From contig NZ_FNLC01000002.1 of assembly GCF_900104065.1 (NCBI RefSeq), forward strand, positions 478,995 to 542,994: 64,000 nucleotides of DNA. Reading direction: 5' to 3'. The stretch is from Natronobacterium texcoconense. Its GTDB lineage: Archaea > Halobacteriota > Halobacteria > Halobacteriales > Natrialbaceae. The translations under genes were made by a program, and so were the position numbers. Below the pieces are notes generated by a model. The model was not told the origin of the DNA. It did not search any database and saw only the letters and a list, made by a program, of their open reading frames with translations. Below, in pieces: positions 32,918 through 40,613 of this stretch. Position 1 is the stretch's first letter; each line of letters starts with the position of its first letter.

Positions 32918-34852
32918 TCACTGCTCCAGAAGCGACTCGAACACCTTCCCCTGGGCCTTCCGGAGGTGCTGATGGAACGTCGGCGACGCGATTTCGAGCG
33001 AGTCGGCGACCTCTTCGCCGGTCGCGTTCCGCGGCCACTCGAACAGTCCAGCGTGGTAGGCGGCCTCGAGTGTCGCCCGCTGTCGGTCGGTGAGGTCGGA
33101 CGTCAGTACCTGGTGTACGCGGTCGTCGACGTTTTCCCGCGTGATCTGACGTCGCATCACCATCTCGGCTGCGGGATACGTCGACTGAACGGTGTCGATG
33201 ACTCGCCTGACGTTTACCGTCGGCGAGAGATGGAGCGTCATCCGGTAGTCGCCGTCCTCGAAGACGGCGCGGTCGACGGTGCCGCCGATCGATGCGATCG
33301 TCGACAGCACCGGCGGTTTGGAGAGTCGGACCTCGAACGTCACCTCTCGTCCTTCAGTCCGGAACGTGACGTCAGTCCAGTGCGGGATCGTCTCGACGAG
33401 CCGTTCGACGGTGTCGACGTCGTTCGGACCCGCAGTGCCGTAGACGAGGTACGTTTCGTCCTCGAGCGCGACCGTGTGATCGAGCGTGATGTGGACGTCG
33501 GTTGGGTCGCCGACGTCGATCCCGAGGTCGTCGAACGTATCGTGAATGCGAAACTCGAGTTCGACGATCTCGTCGCTCATCAGCGCCTGTTTGCGCTCGG
33601 TGGCGACGATCGCGTGGCCGACGATCTCTCCTAGCTGGCTAATCACCGTTCCTTCTCCGCCTTCGAACGCGTGTGGGCGGTCGGCGTAGACGTTCAATAC
33701 GCCGTAGACGGTCCCGCCGTTGACGATCGGGATCGCTGCCGACGAACGAAAGCCGTAGGTTTCGGCTACCTCCCGCCAGGGCTCGTATCTGGGATCGTTC
33801 CAGATGTCGTGAGTCGTCTGGATTTCTCCGGTCCGAAGTGCTCTTCCCGTCGGTCCCCCGCTGTGCTCGTCGTCCGGATCGACCGAGATGGTGGCGTCGT
33901 CGAGGTACCCCTCGACGCCGGCTTCGGTTCGCAGGGTTACCGTCTGCGAAGCGGAGTCGACATCGCCGATCCAGGCGAACTCGTAGGATTCGGCCTCGGC
34001 GAGGCGTTCACAGACGATCCGCTCGATCTCGTCGCGAGTGGATCGGTCGATGATCGCGTCCGTGACGTCACGAACGATGTCGTTGAGGTTGTTGAGTGCG
34101 GCCAACTGTTCGCGCTGTCGATCGATCCGACGTTCACGCCCGACGCGGTCGTAGGCTGCGACCGCGTTCGTCGCCAGCAGTTCGATCAGATATCGGGCCT
34201 CGTCGTCGAACGACCCTCGTTCGCGCGACCCAGCGACGAGAACGCCGTGTGCTTCCATCGGAACGAACAGCCCCGCTCGCATTTCGGTCTCCGCTGGATC
34301 TGCCTGCATTCGCGGTGATTCGAGGACGTCGTCGTAGAGTTGGGTTTCGCCTGCCTCGAAGACGTGACCGGTAATGCTCTCCTCACTCAACGAAACGACT
34401 GGAAACTCGGTACGCATGAAATTCGCATCGACCGATCGCGGGCCGGGAACCAGTCGATCCTGCTCGTCGTCGTAGTGATAGACGATCACACCGGAGAGAT
34501 CGAGAACGGTCGTCGTTTTACTGACGACTGCCTCCCCGACTGCTTCGGCCGTCGTTGCATCGAGCAGTGCTCGAGAGAACCCGTGGAGATCCTCGAAGGT
34601 GATCGGCAGTTCGTCGTGGCGATTCCTGCTGTTCCGTATCGACTCTCGAGGTTGCCACCATACCCTGGCGCTCGCGCCGACTTTCTTGGTCTCGAGTTCG
34701 CCGTGATCGACGAGTCGCTCGAGTCGTTCGTACGTACTTCGGCGGCCGAGTTCGAGACGATCCGCTACTTCGGTGGTCGTCAGTGGTGTCCCGGTGTCGC
34801 CGAAGTACGAGAGCGTCTCGTGAAGCGTTTCGGTCAGCGATCCCCCACTCAT
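32918..34852 (-). CDS. multidomain bacterio-opsin-activator-type regulator (HTH, GAF, GAF, HTH-10)
   Basis: A 644-residue protein. Residues ~15-70 are a winged HTH (LTTTEVADRLELGRRSTYERLERLVDHGELE). Two GAF-type sensory domains follow: ~85-235, and ~265-400 containing SAAIPIVNGGTVYGVLNVYADRPHAFEGGE. A Bat-associated domain leads to the C-terminal HTH-10 at ~585-640 (LTDRQRATLEAAYHAGLFEWPR..TGEEVADSLEIASPTFHQHL). It lacks a PAS or kinase domain. Targets unknown. The ATG at 34852 is preferred over one 51 bases upstream because the upstream residues are basic and unlike the rest. Confidence 0.85.
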   Translation of the reverse strand: MSGGSLTETLHETLSYFGDTGTPLTTTEVADRLELGRRSTYERLERLVDHGELETKKVGASARVWWQPRESIRNSRNRHDELPITFEDLHGFSRALLDATTAEAVGEAVVSKTTTVLDLSGVIVYHYDDEQDRLVPGPRSVDANFMRTEFPVVSLSEESITGHVFEAGETQLYDDVLESPRMQADPAETEMRAGLFVPMEAHGVLVAGSRERGSFDDEARYLIELLATNAVAAYDRVGRERRIDRQREQLAALNNLNDIVRDVTDAIIDRSTRDEIERIVCERLAEAESYEFAWIGDVDSASQTVTLRTEAGVEGYLDDATISVDPDDEHSGGPTGRALRTGEIQTTHDIWNDPRYEPWREVAETYGFRSSAAIPIVNGGTVYGVLNVYADRPHAFEGGEGTVISQLGEIVGHAIVATERKQALMSDEIVELEFRIHDTFDDLGIDVGDPTDVHITLDHTVALEDETYLVYGTAGPNDVDTVERLVETIPHWTDVTFRTEGREVTFEVRLSKPPVLSTIASIGGTVDRAVFEDGDYRMTLHLSPTVNVRRVIDTVQSTYPAAEMVMRRQITRENVDDRVHQVLTSDLTDRQRATLEAAYHAGLFEWPRNATGEEVADSLEIASPTFHQHLRKAQGKVFESLLEQ

Positions 34853-35072
34853 ACTCCCATCACGATCGCCAGTCGTATCAACCCTCCGCCGGCGGTACTC
34901 CACTATCTAGTCCGTAAGAGCGGTATATGCGCCACTTTCCGAACAAGATCTCTGATCAGGCCGATACCGTTGCTAGCCATCTACCTAATTTGTTTTACTA
35001 TGAGTTTAGGGGGAAACGGGACCTCTCGTAGGTACGAACAGCGGACACAGGAACCCCCTCATGCCACGATCT

Positions 35073-38241: not shown

Positions 38242-39882
38242 ATGGGGGTAGAGTCGATCGTACCGGAACGAATCCGTCGTCGGTACAGTGCGAAAATTGC
38301 CGCGGCGCTCGGGTGTGTCGTCCTCGTTACGCTCGCCTTTGGCGTGCTGTTCGGGGTCTACGTCCAGTCGGGATCGGAGGCCGAGGCCGTCGACCGGGCG
38401 ACCGCAGCAGTGACCGGATTGCTGGTCGTCTTCTTCATGAACCTGGGGCTGTTCGGGATCGTGATCGGCGGAAACACCGCTCTCGCGCTTCACCAGCTCG
38501 GTAGCCGCGCCGAGCGGATCGGTGACGGAGAGTTCGACGTCGACCTCGAGACGGGGCGTATTGACGAGGTCGGGCAGCTATACGATTCGGTCGCGGAGAT
38601 GCGTGATTCGCTGGAGACGAACCTCGAGGAACTCGAGGCCGAACAGAAACGTGCTCAGCAGGCCCAGGAGGAGGCCGAACAGCGAGCTGACGAACTCGAG
38701 GAAGAGCGCCAGCGCGTTCAGGAGGCCCGTCGGGAGGTCGAGGAGAAAAACGAGCGCCTGGTCGCGGAGGCCGAACGGTTCTCCGAAGTGATGGACGCCT
38801 GTGCCGACGGCGAACTCGACCGGCGACTCGATCCACAGATCGAGGACGAGGCGCTCGAGGCGATTGCCAGCTCGTTCAACGAGATGCTCGACCGGATCGG
38901 CGAACTCATCGCGGAAGTCCAGACGTCGGCCCGGACCGTCGAGGACGTGGCCACGGACCTGCAGAGTTCGAGTCAGCAGATCCGATCCGCGAGCGAGGAC
39001 GTCGCCGAATCGGTCCAGGAGATCGCCGACGGAGCAGCCGAACAGACGGACGACCTCGACGACGCGGCAAGCGAGGTCAGCGATCTCTCGGCGGCGACCG
39101 AGGAGGTCGCGGCCACGACCACGGAGATCGCAGACCAGTCCGAGGAGGTCGCCGAACTCGCCAACGAAGGCCAGGAGATGGCATCGGAGGCGGCGACGAA
39201 CATCGACTCGCTGGCCGACACTACCGAGATGGTAGTCGAAACGGCCGAAGAACTCGAGCGGGAGACCGAACAGATCGGCGAGATCATCTCGCTGATCGAC
39301 GACATTGCCGACCAGACGAACCTGCTCGCGCTGAACGCCTCGATCGAGGCGGCGACGGCACAGGGAGACGGCGACGGCTTCAACGTGGTCGCAAACGAGA
39401 TCAAGTCCCTCGCGGAGGAGACGATGGACGCCGTCGACGACATCGAGGAGACCCTCGAGTCGATCCGCAAGCGGACGTCGACGACGGCCGAGGAAATCGC
39501 GACGGTCGACGAGGAGATGAAATCCACTGCGACGCTCGTCGACGACCTCGAGACCCGCCAGGAGACGATCTCTCAGGGAATCGACCAGGTCGACGGGAGC
39601 ATCCAGGAGATCACGTCGACGGCCGACGACCAGGCGACCGCTGCCGAGGAACTGGCGACGCTCGTCGACACGGTCGCCGAGGTCTCGACGGAGACGAGTT
39701 CCGAAGCCGAGCAAGCCGCTGCTGCGGCCGAGGAGACGACCGCGACGATCGACGAGGTGTCGGCGACTGCGACCGACCTCGAGGCCGACGCTCAGAACCT
39801 GCGTGAACTGATCGGTTCGTTCACCATAGATCAGCAAGCCACTACTGCGACGTCGTCGGCGACTCCTGCTGGAGGAGACTGA
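38242..39882 (+). CDS. two-TM transducer of HtrII type (methyl-accepting)
   Basis: A 546-residue transducer. TM1 (~19-42) and TM2 (~54-82) are separated by only about a dozen residues, so there is no extracellular ligand domain. HAMP modules follow (GDGEFDVDLETGRIDEVGQLY), then a long coiled coil and the CheA/CheW-binding hairpin tip at ~353-396 (IADQTNLLALNASIEAA). From TM2 through HAMP it lines up with Natronomonas HtrII without gaps (MNLGL against INLGL). Asn67 corresponds to HtrII Asn74, which hydrogen-bonds its rhodopsin partner. HtrII Glu43 and Ser62 are not kept. It should relay signals from the adjacent opsin-like protein to CheA. Confidence 0.9.
   Translation: MGVESIVPERIRRRYSAKIAAALGCVVLVTLAFGVLFGVYVQSGSEAEAVDRATAAVTGLLVVFFMNLGLFGIVIGGNTALALHQLGSRAERIGDGEFDVDLETGRIDEVGQLYDSVAEMRDSLETNLEELEAEQKRAQQAQEEAEQRADELEEERQRVQEARREVEEKNERLVAEAERFSEVMDACADGELDRRLDPQIEDEALEAIASSFNEMLDRIGELIAEVQTSARTVEDVATDLQSSSQQIRSASEDVAESVQEIADGAAEQTDDLDDAASEVSDLSAATEEVAATTTEIADQSEEVAELANEGQEMASEAATNIDSLADTTEMVVETAEELERETEQIGEIISLIDDIADQTNLLALNASIEAATAQGDGDGFNVVANEIKSLAEETMDAVDDIEETLESIRKRTSTTAEEIATVDEEMKSTATLVDDLETRQETISQGIDQVDGSIQEITSTADDQATAAEELATLVDTVAEVSTETSSEAEQAAAAAEETTATIDEVSATATDLEADAQNLRELIGSFTIDQQATTATSSATPAGGD
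39871..39876 (+). promoter_or_regulatory. ribosome binding site GGAGGA for the opsin gene
   Basis: The site lies inside the last codons of the transducer gene, 8 bases before the GTG at 39885. The two genes are 2 bases apart, so translation is probably coupled. Confidence 0.55.
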
Positions 39883-39884
39883 GC

Positions 39885-40613
39885 GTGTTCGCTCCGTCTA
39901 CCGTCTACCTGTGGGCAGCGGCCGGTCTCGGCGTGGCTACGCTCGCGTTTCTGGTCGTTGCCCGCCGTCTTCCGGACACCAGCCGTCAGTTCGGCTACGC
40001 TGCCGTCGGCGCCGTTGCCGTAATGACGGCCTCGAACGTGGTGATGGCCGGTCTCGAGGCGGGCGGATACGGGACCGATTTCGTCAGGTTCGTCGGGTAC
40101 ACGGGGCTTTGGACCGTTATCTGCTCCGTCATCGTGGCCGTCGCCGGCGTCGATCGCCGGCTGACGGGTGCGCTGTTTGCGATCGTCCTGTCCCGGCTCT
40201 GGATAACCTACGGGAGCTGGCAGGTCGAGGGAACGCTCGGTGCAGTGCTCGCGCTCGTCCCGTTTGCACTGCTGCTGATCGGGATCTACCTGCTGTTCGG
40301 GCCGTTCATGCGTGCGGTCTCGACCGTCGAAGAGGAACGGCGTCTGCTCTACACGAAACTGCGGAACCTGGTCGTTCTCGGCTGGATCGCGCTGGTCCTC
40401 ACCGGCATTCTGTCGGAATCGATGGATCTCACCACCGATTTCGTCGGCCAGTTCGCGTCGATCTACGTCGAAGTCGTACTCGTGATCGGCTTCGCTGGCA
40501 TCGTCGTCCGGAGCGGCCACGCACTCGAGAAGACCGCCGCATCGACGTCGCTCAACCCGTTCGAGGACGACAGAACGGGCGACCCGCGACCGGAGTCGGT
40601 CGCCGCCGACTAG
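39885..40613 (+). CDS. sensory rhodopsin II-like seven-helix protein without retinal lysine
   Basis: A 242-residue seven-span protein. It can be aligned by eye with N. pharaonis SRII along its length: YLWAAAGLGVATLAF, NVVMAG, helix C VRFVGYTGLW, helix F LYTKLRNLVVLGW, helix G ASIYVEVVLVIGF. The retinal Lys205 position is Val200, counterion Asp75 is Gly71, Asp201 is Glu196, and pocket residues Tyr174, Pro175, Trp178 and Thr204 are Leu170, Val171, Gly174 and Leu199. Arg68 is kept. Transducer-contact residues Thr189 and Tyr199 are kept as Thr184 and Tyr194. The only lysines (158, 216) are outside the membrane core. Retinal cannot bind covalently. It probably serves as a non-photic input subunit for the transducer. 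Confidence 0.88.
   Translation: MFAPSTVYLWAAAGLGVATLAFLVVARRLPDTSRQFGYAAVGAVAVMTASNVVMAGLEAGGYGTDFVRFVGYTGLWTVICSVIVAVAGVDRRLTGALFAIVLSRLWITYGSWQVEGTLGAVLALVPFALLLIGIYLLFGPFMRAVSTVEEERRLLYTKLRNLVVLGWIALVLTGILSESMDLTTDFVGQFASIYVEVVLVIGFAGIVVRSGHALEKTAASTSLNPFEDDRTGDPRPESVAAD

Follow-up and report, generated by a model that had tools for sequence, protein, structure and literature searches.

Downstream of a gene for an HtrII-like transducer, the 64,000-nucleotide stretch of Natronobacterium texcoconense DNA analysed here (the window) contains a gene for an opsin that resembles sensory rhodopsin II (SRII) and has no Schiff-base lysine. This raises the question of what such an opsin might sense. 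Both open reading frames are intact (Table 1). The transducer gene ends in a TGA codon (39880-39882) and the opsin GTG follows at 39885; the 2 bp gap and the strong Shine-Dalgarno motif given in a preliminary description of this DNA are thus both present, the motif as GGAGGAG. A gene for a GAF-BAT-HTH_10 regulator of the bacterio-opsin activator type lies on the opposite strand, 3.3 kb upstream of the transducer (window positions 32918-34903).

Table 1. Features of the opsin-transducer gene pair. Positions are those of the window; residue equivalences refer to SRII and HtrII of Natronomonas pharaonis (NpSRII, NpHtrII), and the near clade and opsin-related proteins (ORPs) are defined in the text.
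Feature	Position	Strand	Length or basis
HtrII-like transducer (two TM helices, HAMP, MCP signalling domain)	38242..39882	+	546 aa, stop codon included
Asn67 codon, matching NpHtrII Asn74 (contact to opsin Tyr199)	38440..38442	+	alignment
Shine-Dalgarno-like GGAGGAG 5′ of opsin start	39871..39877	+	sequence
Lysine-less opsin, group B ORP	39885..40613	+	242 aa, GTG start, stop codon included; Pfam, profile, fold, tree
Gly71 codon, site of counterion Asp75	40095..40097	+	alignment
Arg104 codon, buried Arg at Val108 site, retinal ring pocket	40194..40196	+	invariant in 21/21 of near clade
Tyr194 codon, equivalent of transducer-contact Tyr199	40464..40466	+	invariant in every lysine-less opsin examined
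Glu196 codon, site of Asp201	40470..40472	+	Glu confined to near clade
Val200 codon, site of Schiff-base Lys205	40482..40484	+	alignment with NpSRII

The homology of the opsin to SRII is distant but real. Its match to the Pfam Bac_rhodopsin family (E = 2.3e-4) was under the curated cut-off, and a 14-sequence opsin profile matched NpSRII at 2.6e-12 in a profile search against the PDB. An AlphaFold2 model (pLDDT 86.1, pTM 0.83) had seven transmembrane helices, and its best PDB matches were SRII structures (TM 0.77–0.79, 22–24% identity). The alignment with NpSRII bore out the substitutions reported in the preliminary description, namely Lys205 to Val200, Asp75 to Gly71, Tyr174 to Leu170, Pro175 to Val171, Trp178 to Gly174 and Thr204 to Leu199, as well as the retention of the contact residues Thr189 (Thr184) and Tyr199 (Tyr194). 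The membrane core contains no lysine, either at the 205 site or elsewhere, and the possible helix G lysine that would have undone the earlier claim did not appear. Judged from its sequence, the protein should be unable to form a retinal Schiff base. It also has a feature absent from the earlier description, an invariant buried arginine (Arg104, Val108 in NpSRII) besides Arg68 (Arg72 in NpSRII).

The transducer, in which Pfam recognized HAMP and MCPsignal domains, matched NpHtrII chains over its N-terminal 133 aa at 3e-24. It is of the HtrII type, with two transmembrane helices, a HAMP domain, an MCP signalling domain and homology to the HtrII N-terminus. The contact residues fared as had been described: by alignment, Asn74 is retained as Asn67, the segment containing Glu43 is deleted and Ser62 is replaced by Ala. 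The loop between TM1 and TM2 is short, having four residues fewer than that of NpHtrII.

The same genome (G000) encodes a canonical SRII that has kept the lysine and adjoins its own HtrII (L001), a halorhodopsin-like protein (L002), a retinal-synthesis protein (PF15461) and four more lysine-less opsins (L035–L038) lacking an adjacent HtrII-like transducer. Counting the window opsin, the genome thus has five lysine-less opsins alongside an intact phototaxis receptor. Relatives of the window opsin were found in 55 of the 125 genomes of the family at E = 0.001, the weak end of the matches including some canonical opsins, and in 96 of the 392 genomes of the order; the genera named include Natronorubrum, Natronolimnohabitans, Halopiger, Natrialba, Salinadaptatus and Halostagnicola. 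A quick tree of 83 opsins, in which some long branches leave the deep branching order not firm, placed all lysine-less sequences in one clade (98% support), separate from SRII. The window opsin fell in a 21-member clade (100% support, 11 genera), here called the near clade, and was closest to the paired copies of three other genomes (G082, G095 and G096).

Lysine-less haloarchaeal opsins were, as had been noted earlier, known before as a class. According to the available sections of Becker et al. 2016 (PMC4915679), 48 of them occur in 80 haloarchaeal genomes and form two groups of ORPs, A and B; 17 of the 32 group B copies are linked to HAMP/MCP proteins, nine lying near chemotaxis and flagellar operons, transcription was shown for eight of the nine ORPs tested, and a role in non-light taxis was proposed, as it was later in the preliminary description. 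The window opsin is a group B ORP: it has a hydrophobic residue at the 205 site (Val200), together with Gly174, Leu170, Arg68 and Tyr194. The group B trait Tyr51, which those sections call highly conserved but not definitive (PMC4915679), is absent; Asn47 stands in its place, an atypical residue, since nearly all relatives in group B, among them 20 of the 21 near-clade members, have Tyr at this position. Thr184 is atypical as well, most group B relatives having Asp. The protein is not an SRII, since it lacks the Schiff-base lysine and lies outside the SRII clade. A search of the literature for follow-up work on ORPs that names a ligand found none.

The lysine-less clade is wider than groups A and B as set out in the available part of PMC4915679. 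Group A sequences (Arg205, usually with Asp76) formed a separate clade with 100% support, and group B sequences have a hydrophobic residue at 205 and Gly75. Two extra classes have Arg205 or His205: in the former, Asp75 and Tyr174 are retained (L085–L088; L090 has Glu75), and two of the four His205 opsins (L084, L144, L148 and L149) have Asp75. The Arg205/Asp75 opsins (L085–L088, L090) and the His205 opsins adjoin longer transducers, and the combination of His205 with Asp75 would be apt for sensing pH. The leuS gene adjoins both the Arg205/Asp75 pair (L085–L090) and many near-clade opsins (L043–L050, L053, L055 and L058), a common neighbour that suggests one old locus at which the opsin type changed. 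Two lysine-less opsins (L143:3970-5367 and L084:5037-6434) form part of 466-aa open frames in which the opsin domain starts at about residue 210; the putative N-terminal part had no Pfam match. Upstream of two others (L065 and L068) lies an 800-aa HAMP/MCP transducer of a different type, without an HtrII-like N-terminus.

Of the 21 near-clade loci, 12 have a transducer with the same N-terminus directly upstream of the opsin. A second lysine-less clade was also paired with such a transducer, often inside a che cluster. The transducer tree repeated the opsin tree, with a correlation between distance matrices of 0.85 over 40 pairs (reached in none of 2000 permutations) and of 0.73 within the near clade (none of 5000), agreement to which species history contributes. 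Two paralogous pairs of a single genome (L048 and L083, G011) split alike in both trees. A Natrialba-like genus had hinted at one transducer swapping between different opsins, an idea rejected because the transducer tree splits as the opsin tree does. Some loci (L060, L074, L075 and L077) are opsin-transducer-opsin triplets near che genes, with two different lysine-less opsins around one transducer.

The preliminary description held that the complex had been kept. The conservation of the pairing in relatives agrees with this, but four genomes have a transducer whose adjacent opsin is missing or broken (G080, L134; G081, L135; G037, L136; G035, L137), and the claim has to be narrowed: pairing is not obligate. 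The transducers of G080 and G081 are 87% and 84% identical; at L135 the opsin is cleanly gone from between the transducer and FilR1, and G037 keeps a remnant copy. The solo transducers remain under selection, with omega values of 0.13–0.14 (Nei-Gojobori). Since all four genomes encode other lysine-less opsins elsewhere, pairing in trans is possible. The FilR1-type regulator and an EamA transporter, which flank the pair in five genera, were considered as functional partners and dismissed; FilR1 occurs in 89 of the 125 family genomes independently of the opsin, so its flanking position reflects shared synteny.

The former retinal pocket was represented by 19 positions, chosen from the available text of PMC4915679 and from the NpSRII pocket. 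In the near clade these positions had a mean entropy of 0.42 bits, against 1.30 for the other transmembrane positions, and 20,000 random position sets all gave higher values (the permutation ignores the spatial clustering of the sites). Near-clade opsins had a ratio of pocket to other entropy of 0.28 when paired and 0.33 when orphan; the ratio was 0.26 for the real retinal pocket of SRII (six sequences only) and 0.66–0.82 in the remaining lysine-less clades. The near-clade consensus departs from canonical opsins at 18 of the 19 positions. Thirteen residues were invariant in all 21 members (Arg68, Gly71, Tyr72, Trp76, Arg104, Thr108, Leu130, Trp167, Leu170, Val171, Gly174, Tyr194 and Glu196); Arg104, in place of the ring-pocket Val108, and Glu196, in place of Asp201, were found only in this clade. 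The former retinal cavity thus appears to have been rebuilt and then held fixed. General conservation of the core does not account for the low pocket entropy, since the 68 non-pocket positions conserved in canonical opsins averaged 1.14 bits among near-clade members. A packed structural core could nevertheless also give strict conservation. The preliminary description had proposed looking in relatives for both the altered pocket and the pairing; both were found, and the isolated occurrence expected of a decaying gene was not.

When the window pair was compared with L039, the opsin had an omega of 0.29 and the transducer one of 0.16; close opsin pairs ranged from 0.16 to 0.62 (Nei-Gojobori). 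This indicates purifying selection on the opsin and argues against neutral decay; a dN/dS near 1, named earlier as an outcome that would count against the proposal, was not observed. A pseudogene was discarded on the strength of this value and of the conserved pocket. The lysine-less opsin diverges faster than SRII: between matched species its identity was 53–57%, against 62–67% for SRII.

ORP-type transducers, counted at E below 1e-150, were present in 26 genomes of the family. With regard to retinal INDEPENDENCE, PF15461 was absent from 12 of the 26, and all 12 have an intact pair; it was present in all 15 genomes encoding an SRII of at least 60% identity (Fisher p = 0.0014, the genomes not being phylogenetically independent). 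In G012 the SRII is cut to a 183-aa frame and the retinal gene is gone, and the ORP pair is intact. The available sections of PMC4915679 report eight species that carry ORPs but have neither canonical opsins nor the last genes of retinal synthesis. The short, archaellum-type CheA was found in all 26 transducer genomes versus 13 of the 99 others (p = 1.6e-17, again with genomes that are not phylogenetically independent), and within-genus contrasts concur (g21, G097 versus G098; g23, G103 versus the others). The short CheA of the window genome adjoins ArlI and ArlH and passes the CheA_Halo equivalog model (1029 bits, cut-off 950), which the long CheA does not reach (706 bits). SRII genomes have the same CheA association, which is consistent with a shared output. 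Archaellin, tried as a discriminator, was too common (86 of 125 genomes) and separated the genomes less well than CheA type.

We put at about even the chance that the window pair is a transducer-coupled chemoreceptor on the SRII scaffold, with a putative ligand in the rebuilt cavity and signalling to CheA. In its favour are the remodelled but constrained pocket, purifying selection, the agreement of the two trees, the retained transducer contacts, the intact pairs in genomes lacking the retinal gene, the CheA association and the two ORPs that bound no retinal. Against it stand the lost Thr204-Tyr174 relay and the four relatives whose selected transducer has no intact opsin beside it. A specific small ligand would be held by Arg68, Tyr72, Trp76, Arg104, Thr108, Trp167, Gly174 and Glu196; with two arginines in the cavity, it would plausibly be polar or anionic. 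Its binding would shift helices F and G, whose movement would turn TM2 of the transducer, and the signal would travel by way of HAMP and the tip of the MCP domain to the CheA linked to the archaellum, altering swimming reversals. In the path proposed for SRII, retinal acts through Thr204 and Tyr174 on an outward tilt of helix F, followed by TM2 rotation, HAMP and CheA, and double mutants of BR and HR carrying Tyr199 and Thr189 are able to bind HtrII (PMC3274258). Tyr199 and Asn74, whose equivalents the pair retains, are contacts of importance for the binding of HtrII (PMC3274258). The SRII trigger (retinal against Thr204 and the Thr204-Tyr174 hydrogen bond) is lost, so the first step must differ from that of SRII; with Leu at 174 and 204 and both opsin contacts (Tyr199 and Thr189) retained, the input step must be new and the output path can be old. 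More tentatively, the near clade may be a receptor subfamily whose cavity was rebuilt round the invariant Arg104 and Glu196 for one shared ligand, with other lysine-less opsins of the cell possibly serving the same transducer in trans.

The invariant buried Arg and Glu residues would also suit a physical or ionic sensor (of pH, an anion, membrane potential or lipid state) in which a network of Arg68, Arg104 and Glu196 moves helix F without an organic ligand. The neighbouring classes with an ionisable 205 residue (Arg or His) opposite Asp75 fit such a sensor, His205 in particular being suited to pH; it would, however, have no need to freeze the former ring pocket in its entirety (Thr108, Gly174, Leu130 and Val171), and we regard it as rather unlikely. 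The better conservation of the transducer and its solitary occurrence in G080, G081, G035 and G037 would agree with a transducer that is itself the sensor, merely stabilized or tuned by the opsin. Such an arrangement is improbable, given that the short TM1-TM2 loop leaves the transducer no extracellular sensing domain, that the pocket and not the interface alone is frozen, orphan opsins included, and that the solo-transducer genomes all have other lysine-less opsins.

The retained opsin fold and the retinal gene of the window genome would allow a light sensor that binds retinal or another carotenoid-derived chromophore non-covalently. This is very unlikely in view of the 12 genomes with an intact pair and no retinal gene, the replacement of ring-pocket residues by Arg, Thr and Gly, and, in the available sections of PMC4915679, two purified ORPs that neither bound retinal in vitro nor absorbed at 480–580 nm with it. 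That the gene is a decaying photoreceptor, as loss of the defining lysine and the G037 remnant might suggest, is hardly credible: the opsin is intact in 11 near-clade genera, its omega is 0.29, conservation is higher in its pocket than elsewhere, and the same genome has a separate intact SRII-HtrII.

The data focus the question on a site that can be put to the test, formed by Arg104 and Glu196 with their neighbours. The canonical SRII-HtrII of the genome provides an internal control, and the predicted output is the archaellum-linked CheA. Among GPCRs, light sensing is one branch among many; if microbial opsins include non-light receptors, the rhodopsin scaffold would parallel them. Relative to the available sections of Becker et al. 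2016 (PMC4915679), the main addition is the cavity apparently rebuilt and then fixed, with its clade-specific conservation; the tree-wide co-divergence, solo transducers, His205 and Asp75-keeping Arg205 classes, and CheA_Halo association are also additions.

Compared with known systems, the window opsin shares with the group B ORPs of those sections (PMC4915679) the hydrophobic 205, the changes of Trp178 to Gly, Tyr174 to Leu and Phe127 to a small residue, the retained Arg72 and Tyr199, and a HAMP/MCP neighbour, which about half of them have; it differs from them in that Tyr51 is replaced by Asn and Asp189 by Thr, and in the invariant Arg104 and Glu196 of its sub-clade. Group A ORPs (Halorubrum type) are likewise lysine-less and adjoin a HAMP/MCP transducer, but have Arg at 205, usually Asp at 76, and do not keep Arg72. 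The pair resembles SRII-HtrII of Natronomonas pharaonis (PDB 1h2s) in its transducer-opsin gene order, fold, transducer architecture and Tyr199, Thr189 and Asn74 contacts. Unlike that system, the opsin has neither lysine nor counterion, its pocket is remodelled and the Thr204-Tyr174 relay is lost, and, unlike NpHtrII, the transducer has a loop four residues shorter and no Glu43.
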